Assembly (NCBI GenBank): GCA_018057825.1
Contig: JAGPCY010000035.1
Location: 1 to 64,000, forward strand
DNA from: Kofleriaceae bacterium
GTDB taxonomy: Bacteria; Myxococcota_A; Polyangia; Haliangiales; Haliangiaceae
DNA: 64,000 nt
Direction: 5' to 3'
Shown here: in pieces, positions 6,001-56,659 of the stretch
How positions within the stretch are numbered: the stretch's first letter is position 1
Layout of the letters: each line of letters opens with the position of its first letter
Made by a program: the position numbers and the translations under genes
Notes under the pieces: generated by a model
What the model saw: the letters and a program-made list of their open reading frames with translations, nothing else
What the model was told of the DNA's origin: nothing
The model's database searches: none

Positions 6001-6170
6001 CCACCTCGGCCTCGGACTCGGTCTCCGACTCGGACTCGGCCTCCGACTCGGACTCGGTCTCGGCCTCGGCCTCGGCCTCCGACGCCGACTCGGCCTCGGT
6101 CTCGGCCTCGGCCTCCGACTCGGTCTCGGTCTCGGTCTCCGACTCGGCCTCCGCCTCCGCCTCGGCCTCG
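6001..6170 (-). repeat. Hexamer array B (GARNCC), minus strand
   Basis: Reads on the plus strand as CTCGGN/CTCCGN units, that is GAG-N-CC on the minus strand, with GAGNCC and GGAGNC variants interleaved. It fills the gap between the stop codons of the convergent cyclophilin (5989) and hipA (6201) genes. It is the left member of the same-orientation pair that brackets the DUF262-HipA operon. Confidence 0.9.
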
Positions 6171-6200
6171 CGGGCGGACACTACCAAATCGGCATGGGTC

Positions 6201-7415
6201 CTAGATGCGGGGTTGCTGCGCCCGCAAGAGCGGCACCTTGCTCCAGTGGCGGCCAAGGGCCTCCCGGTATCCCACCGTGACGTTGGGATGGTCCCGCAGC
6301 TCACGCCACACTGTCGCCGCCTGGGCCACCGTGGACGCCGCGAGGTCAGCCGTCCGATCGGGATCGTTGCCCAGGCGCCGCGCCAGCTCGCGAAAGTGCC
6401 GGAGATCGAGCTCGGCAAAGTGCTTGGTCCCGTCGAGCTTGAGCGCCAGCTCGCGACCGAACTGCGGCCACTGACCGGTGAACACCTGATCGTACAGCGG
6501 GGTCAACGCGGCGCGGATCCCGTCGGGGTACAGCACCGACCAGTTCTTGGTGTGAGCGTCGTCGTTGCCCGAGGCCGCGATGAACGCGAGCCGCCGGATC
6601 ACCTCGTCGTAGGCCTCGGGTCCGACGATGGCCATCGCCAAGCGGGTGAGCTTGTCGTAGGTCAGGTCATCGTACTTCTTGTCGGGGCGGCGCCCGACGA
6701 TCTGCTGGAAGTCCTCCTGGTGGATCCGGCGCCCGTCGGGCGTCCGATCGTAGCGGGCGATCAAGAACACCAGCCCGTCGACCTCGCCGTCGTGCGGCAC
6801 GTCGACGAGGTCAGTCAGCGGCCGCAACTCGGTGGCTGGGACGTCGAAGCCCAGGCGTCGCGCCCACTCCATCGTGACCCACTCGTTGGCCGCCAGCTCG
6901 GGGTACTGGGCGTAGGAGATCTTGGCGATCCAGGCGCCCCGTTCGCCAGCTCCCGGCAGGTGAAACCGGTCGGCCCCCCGCACCAGCGAGAACTTGAGCT
7001 GCACCCCGGCCAGCGAGAAGCGCAGGCCCGCGGACTCCGCGGAGGATGGCTCCACCGGCGGCCGCGCGGCGGGCTCGCCGCCTTCCGCCTCGATCGTCAA
7101 CGCGCCAGGGAGATCCTGCCCGACGGCGCACAGGAATCCGAGGTCATCGCCGAGGTCGAGGCCGAGCCGGTCGGCAACGCGGCTCCGCAGGTCGCCCTCG
7201 GGGATGAGGTTGGCGAAGAACGGCGGCGCGAGCCCGGGACGGTCCCCGCGCTGGACGTCCTTGCGATCGTCCTCGAACCACTGCCCCAGCACGGGCCGCG
7301 GCCGGCTCGCGCGGTAGGCGGGATCGACGCGGAACTCGATCCACGCCTGGGCGTCCTCGACCAGATGCCCGACGACGACCTCGCCCAGCTTGACCAGGGC
7401 GCGCCGCCCGGTCAT
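6201..7415 (-). CDS. hipA: HipA-family serine/threonine kinase
   Basis: A 404-residue HipA-like kinase. Motifs in order: a HipA N1-like beta region (residues 1-105), the P-loop-like [11 protein letters not shown] (134-144), the EDFQQIVGR segment (234-242), the catalytic NDDAHTKN (284-291) and the metal-binding PLYD (306-309). All residues needed for phosphotransfer appear present. E. coli HipA phosphorylates glutamyl-tRNA synthetase and induces dormancy; other HipA-type kinases hit other translation factors. The ATG at 7415 overlaps the TGA of the upstream DUF262 gene (ATGA), so the two are coupled. No HipB-like helix-turn-helix antitoxin is present. The start was chosen by the overlap and by the N-terminal beta-strand. 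Confidence 0.92.
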
Positions 7416-9040
7416 GGATCGCCGACCTCGGCCAGCAGGTAGGCGATGGAGGGGCGGTCGTTGTGCCCCCACTCGGCCAGCCGCGCCCCCATGGCATCGA
7501 CCGCGGCGACCAGGGCGGCGCCGCGCACTGCGACGAAGCGCGCCGGGTCGTTATCGATCAGCGCCGCCGCGGCGTTCGGATCGATCAGGTGGGAACGCAG
7601 GAGCCGGGTGTCGCGACCACTGCCCGTGACCTCGGCCACGAGCTCCGACCGCGCCGAGCCGACGCCGACCGAAAGCACGCGGTTCGCAGGCGACGACCAT
7701 GCGGCACCTGAGCCGGGGAACACCGGGCGAAACACGTCCTTGTCGTGGGCGGTCAGCGCCGAGGCCACGTCGAGCGTCGCGTCGTCACGGGGGGCGAGGA
7801 CGCGCGGCTGGTGCGCGGCCAGCGCCAGGAGCACGAGGCGAGAATCCGCCGCGCGCGCGTCGAAGCGATCGGGGAGGCGAAACCCGTCGCGACGGTTGGA
7901 CTCGACCAGCGCGAGGAGCCGCTGGGCGCTGGCCTCCTCGTCGGCCTCGACGGCGCTCACCCCTCGGCGCCGGAGCGTCCGGTCGTCGACGCTCGGCGAC
8001 AGGAAGCTGCGCCAGACCCAGCGGACCAGGAGGATGAGCGTCCGCGGCCGCGGCTCGGCGTGGAGCGCAAAGAACCGACAGAGCACGATGAGCGGCGTCG
8101 AGAACGGCAAGAGCCGCAGGTGCGGCACCTCGGCGTGGACCCGCAGGAACCCGAGCACACGCCGAAACACCGGCGCGCCGTCGGCGATCGCGGTGGTGAA
8201 CTGGTCGGGGTGCTCGTGGGCGAGCTCCTTGAAGGGCCGGGTGACGTCGAGCCCGCGCATCGCGACCAACCCGGGGAGGAGCTGCGATTCCTCGTCGGGC
8301 GTTCCCATCCCCAGCCCGGCCAGCTCGGCGCCGAGCTCGCTCAAGGTCGCGGGTGCCGCCGTCGCACGACCGAACAGGGCGTTGAAGATGTCGTCGCGGT
8401 CGAGGGGCTTCCCCTTGGTGTTGACCCGATCGAAGATGTGCTTCGCGACCTCCTCGTCAGGGGTCTCGATCACGTAGTACGGCACGCGGTACTCGCGCAG
8501 GCGTTTACCGGCCTCGAACACCGCGGCCCGCGCGAGGGGATCCCGGCCGTCGGGCCACTCCGAGAACACCCACTCGCTCAAGAGCGCCGCGTCGAACAGG
8601 CGCCACACCGGCACCCATCCCGGGGGCACCTCGTCGACCTTCGGCGGGGCGTGGAACCGCTCGGTGTGCGGGTCGAAGTAGACGACGAAGGGATCCTTCG
8701 GCGCCGGCCCACGCGCCGGACGAGCGAGCCCGGCCGCGAGCGACGTCAAGCGCTGCTGGCCATCGACGACCCACAGCGCCCGCTGGGTCTCCTCGCCGTA
8801 GACCTCGAGAGGACCGATGCGGAGCGGCCCCGCCACGCCGGGCGCCACCCGCAACAGCAGCGAGCCGATGGGGTAGCCGCGGTAGACGCTGTCGAACAGA
8901 TCGACCACATCGGCGGCCTGCCACTGCAGCGGCCGCTGAAAGGCCGGGATCCGGACCTCGCCGGCGAGGACCCGACGTACCAGGTCTTCGACCGTCTCGG
9001 TCCGAGCGTCGGGCCGGCGCACCAACTCGCGGGTCGCCAT
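7412..9040 (-). CDS. DUF262 (GmrSD/ParB-like) domain protein
   Basis: A 542-residue protein of the DUF262 family. It shows the family's N-terminal signatures: IPAFQRPLQW (31-40), VVDGQQRLTSL (91-101, the DGQQR NTP-binding/hydrolysis motif) and FDRVNTKGKPL (203-213). The C-terminus (LRSHLIDPNAAAALI and FVAVRGAALVAAV) matches the usual tail of stand-alone DUF262 proteins, but I do not see an intact HNH nuclease motif. Relatives are the GmrS half of type IV restriction enzymes and BrxU/SspE-type anti-phage proteins. Here it is the first gene of an operon with hipA, in the position where hipB would normally be. A TATCGT box lies seven bases upstream of its ATG. Confidence 0.88.
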   Translation of the reverse strand: MATRELVRRPDARTETVEDLVRRVLAGEVRIPAFQRPLQWQAADVVDLFDSVYRGYPIGSLLLRVAPGVAGPLRIGPLEVYGEETQRALWVVDGQQRLTSLAAGLARPARGPAPKDPFVVYFDPHTERFHAPPKVDEVPPGWVPVWRLFDAALLSEWVFSEWPDGRDPLARAAVFEAGKRLREYRVPYYVIETPDEEVAKHIFDRVNTKGKPLDRDDIFNALFGRATAAPATLSELGAELAGLGMGTPDEESQLLPGLVAMRGLDVTRPFKELAHEHPDQFTTAIADGAPVFRRVLGFLRVHAEVPHLRLLPFSTPLIVLCRFFALHAEPRPRTLILLVRWVWRSFLSPSVDDRTLRRRGVSAVEADEEASAQRLLALVESNRRDGFRLPDRFDARAADSRLVLLALAAHQPRVLAPRDDATLDVASALTAHDKDVFRPVFPGSGAAWSSPANRVLSVGVGSARSELVAEVTGSGRDTRLLRSHLIDPNAAAALIDNDPARFVAVRGAALVAAVDAMGARLAEWGHNDRPSIAYLLAEVGDP

Positions 9041-9105
9041 GGGCCGGACGATACCATGGTGGCGCTCCGGCCCCCCCGCGCGGGCGAGGGGCCTCCCCGC
9101 GCTCC

Positions 9106-9240
9106 TCCTCGGTCTCGGTCTCGGTCTCGGCCTCCGTCTCGGCCTCCGACTCCGACTCGGTCTCGGTCTCGGCCTCCGACTCGGTCTCGGCCTCGGTCTC
9201 GGTCTCGGCCTCGGTCTCGGCCTCGGCCCGCCTCCGCCCC
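9106..9240 (-). repeat. Hexamer array C (GARNCC), minus strand
   Basis: Tandem CTCGGTCTCGGC-type units on the plus strand. It lies between the start of the DUF262 gene (9040) and the stop of the lipoprotein gene (9245), so it is downstream of one minus-strand gene and upstream of another. Same orientation as array B; together they flank the DUF262-HipA operon as direct repeats. Confidence 0.9.
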
Positions 9241-13060: not shown

Positions 13061-16057
13061 ATGAACCGCACCTCCCTCTGCGCGCGGACGGTCTGGGCCC
13101 TGGCCCTGACCGCGACCCTCGGCTCGGCCGTGGCCCAGCCGAGCGATCCGCCCACGCCACCGACCGACGAGCCTCCGGGCGCGCCGAACCCGGACCTGGC
13201 GCCGAACCTGACGCCGACGCCGAGTCCGACGCCGAGTCCGAGTCCGACGCCGAGTCCGAGTCCGAGTCCGAGTCCGAGTCCGAGTCCGACTCCGACCGAT
13301 CAGCCGCCGACCGACGAGCCGCCGCCGGTCGTCCCGCCGAGCGAGCCGCCGCCGAGCGAGCTGCCGCCGACCGACGAGCCGGCGGTCCGCACCGGGGTCC
13401 GCGGTCAGCTCCGCGATCGCGACACCGGGACGCCGCTCGCCGGCGCGGTGGTCGAGGTCGTCGGCGGCGACGCCCGCGCGACCACCGACGACGACGGCCG
13501 CTACGAGCTGGCCTTGCCGCGCGGCACCTACGTCCTGCGGGTGCGCGCCGAGCTGTACCAGATCCGCCGCATCCGCAATGTCCTGGTCCGCGGTGGCCTG
13601 GCCACCGTCGACGTCGCCCTCAAGCTCGACGACCTGGCGGTCGAGGAGGTCGTGGTCGAGGCCGAGCCCGACGCCAAGAGCGAGGCCGCCAACCTGGCCG
13701 AGCGCCAGCGCTCCGCGACGGTGCAGGACGCGGTCAGCGCCCAGGAGATCAGCCGCACGCCCGACTCGAGCGCCGGCGACGCGGTCAAGCGCGTGGTGTC
13801 GGCGACCGTCGTCGGCGGCCGCTACGTGTTCGTGCGCGGCCTCGGTGGCCGCTACTCGACGACCTTGGTCAACGGCGTGGTCCTGCCTAGCCCCGACCCC
13901 GACTCGACCGCGGTGCCGCTCGATCTGTTCCCGGCGTCGCTGGTCGCCAACCTGACGGTGGTGAAGAGCTACACCCCTGACCTGCCGGGCGCCTTCGCCG
14001 GTGGCGATCTGCTGATCCAGACCAACAGCTACCCCAAGGACCTCGAGATCAAGGCCAAGGTCGGCCTGGCGGGCGACAGCGTGTCGACCTTCGCCGACCG
14101 CCTCGACTACGCCGGCGGCGCCACCGACTTCCTGGCCTTCGACGACGGCACGCGGTCGCTGCCCGGCGCCGTGCCGACCGATCGACCGCTGCGGGTCGCG
14201 ACCGGCGGCGTCGACGCCGACACCGCCGAGCGGGTCGCCGAGACCTTCCAGAACGTGTGGGCCACCGCCCGCCGCCAGGTCATGCCCAACCTGTCGCTCG
14301 GCGCCCAGGTCGGCGACAGCGTCACCGATCGCTGCGATCGCACCTGGGGCTACCTGGCGACGGTCAACTACGGCTACAAGCAGGGCGTCCAGCGCGGCGA
14401 GGTGGCGTCCTTGCGGATCTCTGAGGGCGAGCTGGGTGAGCGCCAGCGCTTGTCGAGCGAGGTCGGCACCGCGACCGCCACCCTGGGCGGCCTGGTCAAC
14501 GCCGGGGTCGAGCTGTCGCCCGATCACCAGCTCGATCTGCTGTCGCTCTACACCCGCACCGCCGACGATCGCACCCAGGAGGTCACCGGCTTCTCGGAGT
14601 CCGACGACGGCGAGATCCTGGCGCGCCGGCTGCAGTTCGTGACCCGCGCCATGAGCTTCACCCAGCTCACCGGTCGTCACGTCGTGCCGTCGCTGCGCCG
14701 GGCCCGCCTGGCCTGGGACGCCAACGTGGCGGTGATCGATCGCGACGAGCCCGACACCCGCGACATCGAGTACGACCTGCTCGACGACGGCCGCCGCCGG
14801 TTCCAGAACGGTCCCGGCTCGGCCGAGCACTTCTTCTCGCACCTCGACGACACCACCGGCGGCGGTGGCGCGACCGCGACCGTGCCGCTGCCCGGCGCCG
14901 AGCTGAAGGTCGGCGTCGCCGCCCAGTGGTCGGAGCGCGACTTCACCGCCCGGCGGTTCCGCTTCAACCTGCGCGGCTCGGCCGATCCGACGGTGGTGTT
15001 CCTCGAGCCCGAGGACATGCTCAGCCCCGAGCACATCGGCCCCGACTTCCGCATCGAGGAGCGCACGCTCCAGGCCGACACCTACGCGGCCTCGACCCGG
15101 CTCCTGGCCGGCTTCGCGATGGTGGACATCACCCGCTTCGAACCGCTGCGGCTGGTCGGCGGCGTCCGCTACGAGCACCAGGCGCTGTCGCTGACGCCCG
15201 GCAGCCCCTACGCGATCACCAACCAGCCCGAGCCGGGGGTCGAGCGCACCGAGGGCGCGGTCATGCCCGCCGCCAACCTGATCTACGGGCTGGGCGAGGC
15301 GATGAACCTGCGCGGTGGCTACAGCTTCACCCTGGCCCGGCCGCAGCTCCGCGAGCTGGCGCCGTTTCTGTTCTTCGACTTCGCGCGCCGTCGCGCGGTG
15401 TCGGGCAACGTCGACCTGCGCGACACGCGCATCCACAACGCCGACCTGCGCTGGGAGTGGTTCCCGGGCGAGCGCTCGGTGCTGGCGGTGTCGGGCTTCG
15501 CCAAGCAGTTCCGCGACCCGATCGAGAGCGTGATCGTCAACGTCTCGCAGGGCGACCTCAGCTTCGCCAACGCCGCCGGCGCGTCGCTGTACGGCCTCGA
15601 GCTCGAGGCCCGCGGCGACCTGGGCGGCCTCGATCGCCGCCTCGCCGGGGTCCGCGCCGCCGGCAACCTGACCTTGATCTCGTCGGAGATCGAGCTCGGC
15701 CCCGAGGCCGCGGCCCAGACCAACCAGGCCCGGCCGCTGCAAGGCCAGTCGAGCTACGTCGTCAACCTCGACCTCGGCTACGAGCACAAGCCGACCTCGA
15801 CCGACGTGTCCTTGCTCTACAACGTCTTCGGCGAGCGCATCGCCGAGGTCGGCGTCGAGGGCCTGCCCGACGTCTACGAGCAACCGTTCCACCGGGTCGA
15901 CCTCACGGTCGGCCAGGCCCTGCCTCACCAGCTCAAGCTCAAGCTGGCCGCGACCAACCTGCTCGACCAAGACGTGGTCGTTCAGCAGGGCGAGTTCGCC
16001 GTCCAGAAGTACCGCCCCGGCGTCGCGGTCAGCGCATCGCTCGAGTGGGCGCCGTAA
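13061..16057 (+). CDS. TonB-dependent outer-membrane receptor with CarboxypepD_reg domain
   Basis: A 998-residue receptor. It has a signal peptide (1-26), then a Pro/Ser/Thr low-complexity segment (about 48-85) encoded by the hexamer-like repeat. A carboxypeptidase-regulatory-like domain (about 108-195) and a plug domain (about 222-325, with FVRGLGGRYSTTLVNGV and TVVKSYTPDLPG) follow. The rest is a C-terminal beta-barrel ending in SASLEWAP. Such receptors import siderophores, glycans, peptides or metals, or act with partner lipoproteins; the substrate here is unknown. It follows the tonB-exbB-exbD-exbD genes by 78 bases and precedes a lipoprotein by 15 bases, so the group forms one functional unit. 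Confidence 0.93.
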   Translation: MNRTSLCARTVWALALTATLGSAVAQPSDPPTPPTDEPPGAPNPDLAPNLTPTPSPTPSPSPTPSPSPSPSPSPSPTPTDQPPTDEPPPVVPPSEPPPSELPPTDEPAVRTGVRGQLRDRDTGTPLAGAVVEVVGGDARATTDDDGRYELALPRGTYVLRVRAELYQIRRIRNVLVRGGLATVDVALKLDDLAVEEVVVEAEPDAKSEAANLAERQRSATVQDAVSAQEISRTPDSSAGDAVKRVVSATVVGGRYVFVRGLGGRYSTTLVNGVVLPSPDPDSTAVPLDLFPASLVANLTVVKSYTPDLPGAFAGGDLLIQTNSYPKDLEIKAKVGLAGDSVSTFADRLDYAGGATDFLAFDDGTRSLPGAVPTDRPLRVATGGVDADTAERVAETFQNVWATARRQVMPNLSLGAQVGDSVTDRCDRTWGYLATVNYGYKQGVQRGEVASLRISEGELGERQRLSSEVGTATATLGGLVNAGVELSPDHQLDLLSLYTRTADDRTQEVTGFSESDDGEILARRLQFVTRAMSFTQLTGRHVVPSLRRARLAWDANVAVIDRDEPDTRDIEYDLLDDGRRRFQNGPGSAEHFFSHLDDTTGGGGATATVPLPGAELKVGVAAQWSERDFTARRFRFNLRGSADPTVVFLEPEDMLSPEHIGPDFRIEERTLQADTYAASTRLLAGFAMVDITRFEPLRLVGGVRYEHQALSLTPGSPYAITNQPEPGVERTEGAVMPAANLIYGLGEAMNLRGGYSFTLARPQLRELAPFLFFDFARRRAVSGNVDLRDTRIHNADLRWEWFPGERSVLAVSGFAKQFRDPIESVIVNVSQGDLSFANAAGASLYGLELEARGDLGGLDRRLAGVRAAGNLTLISSEIELGPEAAAQTNQARPLQGQSSYVVNLDLGYEHKPTSTDVSLLYNVFGERIAEVGVEGLPDVYEQPFHRVDLTVGQALPHQLKLKLAATNLLDQDVVVQQGEFAVQKYRPGVAVSASLEWAP
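13203..13310 (+). repeat. Hexamer repeat inside a coding region (Pro-Ser/Pro-Thr)
   Basis: CCGAGT and CCGACG/CCGACT units in tandem, closely related to the intergenic GARNCC arrays but read in a different frame so that they encode Pro-Ser and Pro-Thr pairs. It forms the extracytoplasmic linker between the signal peptide and the first domain of the TonB-dependent receptor. Confidence 0.8.
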
Positions 16058-19678: not shown

Positions 19679-19850
<172 letters not shown>

Positions 19851-22021: not shown

Positions 22022-22031
22022 CTCGCGACCG

Positions 22032-22181
22032 CCGAGACCGAGACCGCGGCGGAGACCGAGACCGAGACCGGGACCGAGGCCGAGACCGAGGCCGAGGCCG
22101 AGTCCGAGACCGAGGCCGAGGCCGAGGCCGAGTCCGAGACCGAGGCGGAGGCCGAGACCGAGGCGGAGGCCGAGGCCGAGG
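22032..22181 (+). repeat. Hexamer array E (GARNCC), plus strand
   Basis: GAGACC, GAGGCC and GAGTCC units with some GAGGCG variants. It fills the gap between the convergent stop codons of ptuB (22021) and the P450 gene (22196), and has the same orientation as array D. Confidence 0.9.
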
Positions 22182-30680: not shown

Positions 30681-30896
30681 CTCGGTCTCGGCCTCGGTCT
30701 CGGTCTCGGTCTCGGCCTCCGCCTCGGTCTCGGTCTCGGTCTCCGCCTCGGTCTCCGTCTCGACCTCGGTCTCGGTCTCGACCTCGGTCTCGGTCTCGGC
30801 CTCGGCCTCGGCCTCCGCCTCGGTCTCCGTCTCCGCCTCCGCCTCCGCCTCGGTCTCGGTCTCGGCCTCCTCTTCGGTCTCCGCCTCCGCCTCGAC
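30681..30896 (-). repeat. Hexamer array F (GARNCC), minus strand
   Basis: CTCGGTCTCGGC-type units on the plus strand with CTCCGC and CTCGAC variants. It begins immediately after the kinase TGA and runs almost to the stop codon of the convergent lipoprotein gene (30912). Confidence 0.9.
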
Positions 30897-34280: not shown

Positions 34281-34579
34281 GCTGGTTCGGCAAGCGCGCG
34301 CCGACGATCGCGGTCCACGTCCTGATCCGCGGCCGGATCGGCGAGGGCTGGTACGACGTCGACCGCACGGTCAAGCTCGCGCCCGGCACGACCTTGGCGC
34401 AGCTCATCGCCGACGGCGAGCGCCTGGGACTGCCGCTGGCGACCGCGGTCGCCGATAGCCCCCACTTGGCCCACACGCTCATGTGGAACGGGGAGCGCTG
34501 CCCGGTGGACGAGCACGGAGCGCGGGTCTTGGCCGATGGGGACGAGCTGTATCTGCTGGCGCCGCTGGCTGGAGGGTGA
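34277..34579 (+). CDS. MoaD/ThiS-like sulfur-carrier protein
   Basis: A 100-residue ubiquitin-fold protein of the MoaD/ThiS family. It ends in Leu-Ala-Gly-Gly, the C-terminal Gly-Gly that carries thiocarboxylate in MoaD. The pattern [16 protein letters not shown] and [14 protein letters not shown] fits the family. It probably supplies sulfur for the pterin-dithiolene cofactor of the AOR enzyme encoded just upstream; MoaD-like genes beside AOR genes are known in tungsten-enzyme loci. The GTG start overlaps the AOR stop codon (GTGA). Confidence 0.75.
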
Positions 34580-34870
<291 letters not shown>

Positions 34871-50952: not shown

Positions 50953-51065
50953 GGGGAGGTTTGTCACCAAACCTCCCCTCGCTGGGGCGTAGCCCCAGCG
51001 AGCCTCCCCTCCGAGACGCCTCCCTCCGGTCGGCTGGACGTTCAGCGCAGGTTCGGGAGACCTCG
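50953..51065. repeat. 113-bp direct repeat, copy 1, with two perfect hairpins
   Basis: Contains two back-to-back inverted repeats. GGGGAGGTTTG-TCAC-CAAACCTCCCC is at 50953-50978 (11-bp stem). CTCGCTGGGGC-GTA-GCCCCAGCGAG is at 50978-51002 (11-bp stem). A further CCTCCCC at 51003-51009 could compete for the first GGGGAGG arm. It begins two bases after the PilZ stop codon and is probably a bidirectional terminator. Confidence 0.8.
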
Positions 51066-51076
51066 CTGCTTCTTGC

Positions 51077-51189
51077 GGGGAGGTTTGTCACCAAACCTCC
51101 CCTCGCTGGGGCGTAGCCCCAGCGAGCCTCCCCTCCGAGACGCCTCCCTCCGGTCGGCTGGAGGTTCAGCGTAGGTTGAGGAGACCTCG
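51077..51189. repeat. 113-bp direct repeat, copy 2, with two perfect hairpins
   Basis: Same sequence as copy 1, offset by 124 bases, with only four mismatches (a single change near 51063, one near 51072 and two near 51078 in copy alignment; the hairpin cores are identical). The duplication is therefore recent, or maintained by conversion. A shorter third piece of the element's right end (18 bases, CTGGAGGTTCAGCGTAGG) occurs at 51210-51227. Together they fill the gap between convergent genes. Confidence 0.8.
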
Positions 51190-56496: not shown

Positions 56497-56659
56497 GCGG
56501 AGACCGAGACCGAGACCGAGTCCGAGACCGAGGCCGAACCCGAGACCGAGACCGAGACCGAGACCGAGGCCGAGACCGAGACCGAGACCGAGGCCGAGAC
56601 CGAGACCGAGACCGAGGCAGAGACCGAGACCGAGGCCGAGACCGAGACCGAGGCCGAGG
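56497..56659 (+). repeat. Hexamer array H (GARNCC), plus strand
   Basis: Mainly GAGACC and GAGGCC with a few GAACCC units. It occupies the whole 163-base gap between the TAG of the lipoprotein gene (56496) and the stop of the convergent UbiB-like gene (56660), with no other sequence left over. Confidence 0.9.

Follow-up and report, generated by a model that had tools for sequence, protein, structure and literature searches.

A gene for a DUF262 protein and a gene for a HipA-family kinase were found to form a conserved, co-inherited and translationally coupled unit. On balance we lean towards interpreting this unit as a two-gene Hip-kinase module whose HipB has been replaced by a BrxU/GmrSD-like sensor or antitoxin that is predicted to be nuclease-dead.

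The gene pair in the window

In the window, the whole stretch of 64,000 nucleotides analysed, both genes lie on the minus strand. The first (9040–7412) encodes a BrxU-like protein of 542 aa with a DUF262/GmrSD_N domain (PF03235, E 4e-26), and the second (7415–6201) encodes a Ser/Thr kinase of 404 aa with matches to Couple_hipA (PF13657, E 1e-16) and HipA_C (PF07804, E 2e-43). The DUF262 stop and the HipA start share a 4-nt ATGA overlap at 7412–7415 on the minus strand, which confirmed the translational coupling put forward in the earlier note. No HTH (HipB-type) gene was present between or beside the two genes and the HipB position was taken by DUF262, in agreement with the stand-alone operon lacking HipB that the note had described. 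Upstream of the DUF262 gene, on the minus strand, are a small gene with no assignment (9643–9245) and a gene that, as read from its sequence, probably encodes an outer-membrane-type protein (10317–9631). A peptidyl-prolyl isomerase gene lies downstream of the pair in convergent orientation.

The HipA of this pair was the single HipA_C match in the whole genome. Its model (pLDDT 85.9, with a low-confidence stretch at the G-loop, residues 116–137) matched E. coli HipA end to end with a Z of 37 over 363 residues. The catalytic motifs were complete, as had been claimed, comprising the G-loop SLAGVQLK, K165, D286-H-K-N291 and D309. Across 79 DUF262-linked HipAs, K165 and E178 were present in every sequence, D286, N291 and D309 in 77, and the G-loop serine S134 in 72, showing that the kinase site is intact. 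Couple_hipA occupies residues 8–108 and is fused to the kinase, whereas hipBST has a short HipT and a separate HipS. Larger fusions were also seen in the family. The DUF262-linked HipAs of loci L040, L050, L051, L054, L058 and L096 (Corallococcus-type) carry a C-terminal SAM-dependent methyltransferase, identified by Pfam for L040 and by sequence similarity for the others, and at L044 (11608–15330) the DUF262-linked HipA has a C-terminal extension of about 360 residues of unknown type and is followed by a second HipA gene.

Conservation of the pair

A genome search for DUF262 beside HipA without HipB had been proposed, and it revealed that the arrangement recurs widely. When the 241 genomes of the class were searched with the DUF262 protein, matches were obtained in 47. 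HipA was the next gene at 19 of the 22 class loci with close homologues (L004–L025), mostly overlapping, and one of the three exceptions stops at a contig edge. A species-wide scan of about 85,000 species using an alignment of DUF262 only gave 80 loci. At 68 of these, HipA was directly 3' on the same strand, and at 5 more it lay behind a split or broken gene. The hosts represented at least eight phyla, including Actinomycetota, Myxococcota, Pseudomonadota, Acidobacteriota, Cyanobacteriota, Bacteroidota, Ignavibacteriota and Thermomicrobiota.

The reverse search, for the HipA subfamily in 231 genomes of the class, agreed with this. DUF262 was upstream of all 26 HipAs that either scored at least 382 bits or, by coordinates, were beside a known DUF262 gene; 23 of them were read at their loci and three (G094:C136, G062:C78 and G055:C252; 313–366 bits) from coordinates. 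Seven other class HipAs, all of 366 bits or less, were without DUF262 upstream. Since L280 (366 bits) and L281 (337 bits) are without DUF262 and three HipAs of similar score are with it, the score does not divide the two groups quite cleanly; the L281 HipA has an HTH partner. Among the top 30 HipA_C loci of the class, 29 were without DUF262, and in most of these the upstream gene, at the overlapping position, was an HTH, HipB-like ORF. In the tree, the DUF262-linked HipAs fell on one side of a branch (support 99) relative to 29 other HipAs. The distance matrices of the two partners were correlated, with r = 0.88 (n = 78 pairs) and none of 2000 permutations as high. That the two genes are chance neighbours was ruled out by the reciprocal DUF262 and HipA scans.

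The pair shares with hipBA (E. coli and Shewanella HipA) the HipA fold and active site and a partner gene that is directly upstream and often overlapping. It differs in that the partner is a DUF262 protein of 500–570 aa rather than the HTH protein HipB, and in that its kinases fall into a clade of their own (support 99). Gerdes et al. 2021 (PMC8262856) distinguished the Hip families hipBST, hipEB, hipH, hipL, hipIN, hipJS, hipMP and hipRF/RG by their genetic context. These also have a HipA-homologous kinase beside a non-canonical partner; however, none of the ten organisations in that paper includes DUF262, which is mentioned nowhere in its main text. By the same context-based definition (PMC8262856), DUF262-HipA is a separate Hip kinase family. 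No description of DUF262 or GmrSD paired with HipA was found in the open literature searched, a body of text outside which most subscription papers and all preprints fall.

The DUF262 protein and its relatives

The AF2 model of the DUF262 protein (pLDDT 88.4) matched BrxU with a Z of 15.8 over 440 residues and the C-terminal part of SspE (7dri) with a Z of 9.2 over 269 residues. Whole-chain rigid superposition on BrxU was poor (rmsd about 23), so that the resemblance holds domain by domain. With the type IV restriction enzymes BrxU and GmrSD and with SspE, the protein has in common the full-length fold and an N-terminal DUF262 domain with LFDS- and DGQQR-type motifs. The DGQQR motif pointed out in the earlier note was found as VVDGQQR (D93–R97). 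Motifs were counted in 81 non-redundant HipA-linked DUF262 proteins, and S51, D93-G-Q-Q-R97, R205, N207 and R506 were invariant in all 81. The HNH motif ([HD]H; DHIYP/HHIFP), which is present in BrxU, GmrSD and SspE, was absent from all 81, and here a separate kinase gene is added. The Asn of the strand that follows the HNH signature was kept in 70 of the 81. GmrSD_N was the only domain of the window protein, with no Pfam match to DUF1524. An unpaired DUF262 relative from Bradyrhizobium (L108) had the signature intact as HHIFP. The invariant motifs, together with the lost HNH, indicate that the sensor/NTP half is strongly constrained and that the nuclease is predicted to be dead. For the DUF262 partner, the fold was thus predicted to be BrxU-like, and the NTP-handling motif was shown to be intact and the nuclease motif lost. 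Its identification as a DUF262 protein stood, with the refinement that it is not just a small domain but a full-length BrxU-like protein from which the nuclease motif has gone.

DUF262 proteins that are nuclease-dead or lack DUF1524 also occur with separate partner proteins in Menshen, ptuXYZ and the PADLOC candidate system PDC-M55. Two validated systems, Menshen and Dazbog, depend on a DUF262 gene that lacks DUF1524 (PMC10952713). The partners elsewhere include an AAA_15 ATPase (PDC-M55), a PtuA-like ATPase (ptuXYZ) and a predicted OLD nuclease (Menshen), whereas here the partner is HipA and there is no ATPase. The window protein matched PADLOC PDC-M55C over its full length with an E of 5e-57, which is weaker than for operon members elsewhere (E down to 5e-180). 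Membership of PDC-M55 was rejected despite this match, as M55A (the AAA_15 ATPase) and M55B were not adjacent, the neighbours being HipA, the small protein and the outer-membrane-type protein. Operons of the order AAA_15 ATPase, unassigned protein and DUF262, matching PDC-M55A/B/C, were observed at L107, L140, L142 and L146, where the nuclease-dead DUF262 protein is unpaired; M55B of these operons had no Pfam match. Nothing was found on PDC-M55 by name in the open literature searched.

The HNH signature was also missing from these HipA-less relatives within PDC-M55-type operons. Nuclease loss therefore extends to the wider PDC-M55C family and is not explained by pairing with HipA alone; the nuclease was probably lost before, or alongside, the choice between alternative partners. 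This pattern fits a DUF262 protein that serves as a reusable sensor with exchangeable effectors.

Turnover and proposed function

The pair was absent from all six congeners and, among the family members listed, was present in only one. The window DUF262 protein grouped (support 100) with sequences from Acidobacteriota, Cyanobacteriota and Bacteroidota and not with other named Myxococcota, and the nearest neighbours of the window HipA were the same. Two Azospirillum plasmids (megaplasmids) carry the pair, annotated as a DUF262 protein and a 'type II toxin-antitoxin system HipA family toxin', and one of the copies lies next to a recombinase gene on a plasmid that is conjugative. The absence from congeners, the plasmid copies and the cross-phylum nearest relatives show an operon that is neither confined to this genome nor fixed, as the turnover envisaged in the earlier note would have it. 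No close relative was found in viral contigs or phages (IMG/VR, INPHARED). Near-identical modules were observed in Myxococcus vastator (L042) and Comamonas sp. KCTC 72670 (L043), with end branches of 0.04, pointing to recent transfer or a mislabelled assembly.

Array B (6004–6170), which is intergenic on the 3' side of HipA, and array C (9108–9226), which is intergenic on the 5' side of DUF262, lie on both sides of the pair in the same orientation, as previously reported; neither was counted as part of the module. This arrangement had led to the proposal that recombination between the two hexamer arrays could excise or insert the pair as a mobile cassette, which we consider most improbable even though the module is missing from the six congeners. 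In the window there are nine (CGAGNC)n arrays, the others being at 107–494, 13210–13295, 19679–19847, 22031–22181, 30681–30894, 34578–34865 and 56500–56658. Several are intergenic, and that at 13210–13295 is within the coding region of a large ORF (13061–16057). Genome-wide, arrays were counted by a 28-mer pattern of the repeat, which gave 6,697 exact matches compared to 1–370 in the six congeners. With arrays this frequent in the window and the genome, flanking by them is not special. In addition, B and C were 61–76% alike in register and thus no closer than A and inverted B, which were up to 82% alike. No empty site was shown in the six congeners because the flanking synteny is broken, the peptidyl-prolyl isomerase side and the outer-membrane protein side being on different contigs or, in G018, about 43 kb apart. 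The excision or insertion of a cassette by B × C recombination was accordingly not upheld, and the hexamer arrays are best seen as species-specific genomic background. A different repeat, a 124-bp tandem of about two copies with 96% matches, was noted at window positions 50953–51189.

Two class genomes retained the partner without the kinase. In L145 the DUF262 gene is kept and HipA is a decayed remnant, and in L144 (4932–6271) what appear to be IS3-like orfA/orfB are in the place of HipA, beside an intact DUF262 gene. Kinase loss with retention of the partner, in these two genomes only, agrees with a toxin-antitoxin relation. The surroundings of the pair were also surveyed. Among 104 neighbour genes of 40 loci, a set taken without a matched control, each PADLOC family matched one gene at most, and the commonest Pfam matches were metabolic or signalling, the neighbours being mostly housekeeping. 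The survey thus lent no support to the enrichment in defence islands that the earlier note had proposed to examine. A simple addiction module or type II toxin-antitoxin pair, self-stabilising, with DUF262 as a structural antitoxin and no dedicated phage sensing, would account for these surroundings, for the DUF262 orphans with decayed HipA, for the plasmid copies (one conjugative, beside a recombinase gene) and for a DUF262 gene located where HipB would be and overlapping the kinase gene in the same way. We nevertheless regard it as rather unlikely, since the DGQQR and RxN motifs, invariant in 81 of 81 proteins, point to an NTP-dependent activity for which a passive antitoxin would have no use, and since DUF262 relatives serve as components of defence systems (PMC10952713).

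The control of HipA by DUF262 in a toxin-antitoxin or defence-type manner, as suggested in the earlier note, remains the best reading, given the antitoxin position of DUF262 and the recurrence of the coupled, HipB-less operon. In SspE, recognition leads to NTP hydrolysis via DGQQR and then to activation of the HNH domain (PMC13251355). HipAD (DS-6), in which a protein other than HipB accompanies the HipA kinase, was validated as anti-phage and required the kinase residue; that partner has DUF3037 and DUF1829 (PMC13092281), whereas the window partner has only GmrSD_N. Based on the SspE scheme (PMC13251355), Menshen and Dazbog (PMC10952713) and HipAD (PMC13092281), restraint of HipA by the DUF262 protein is the most economical model.

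In the proposed mechanism, the DUF262 protein would bind HipA and keep the kinase inactive at rest. A trigger, perhaps foreign or modified DNA if BrxU and SspE are a guide, would be detected by the NTP-dependent DUF262 sensor domain, and the resulting conformational change in the DUF262 protein would free or activate HipA. The freed kinase would then phosphorylate a host target, so that growth stops before the phage or other element spreads, and would thereby fill the effector role held by the HNH nuclease in BrxU and SspE. Aminoacyl-tRNA synthetases are known targets of HipA and HipT. A putative anti-phage function of the pair is plausible. Its most specific form, a widespread immune family in which a BrxU/GmrSD-type sensor of modified or foreign DNA has lost its nuclease and licenses HipA to shut down translation, is put forward tentatively. 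The large size of the DUF262 protein, far above that of a typical antitoxin, the mostly housekeeping neighbours and the absence of close relatives from the viral contigs and phages searched count against the sensor-or-antitoxin module preferred here.

The order of events in SspE, where recognition is coupled through NTP hydrolysis to effector activation (PMC13251355; PMC10952713), could also be matched by a DUF262 protein that is not an antitoxin but an activator or substrate-targeting subunit, one that responds to foreign DNA by turning on, or delivering, an otherwise silent kinase. HipA's own Couple_hipA and the G-loop serine (S134, 72/79) could in that case restrain the kinase by autophosphorylation. 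This alternative appears improbable, as canonical HipA inhibits growth when made without its partner (PMC8262856) and the gene order is antitoxin-first.

The DUF262-HipA pair extends the range of Hip kinase gene organisations by one, in which the partner goes unnamed by annotation pipelines that label the kinase a 'type II toxin-antitoxin HipA toxin'. If the sensor-kinase model is true, type IV restriction and HipA persistence would be joined in one two-gene system across at least eight phyla. The pair also lends support to a view of HipA kinases as effectors of immunity, with an exchangeable partner that determines what triggers them.
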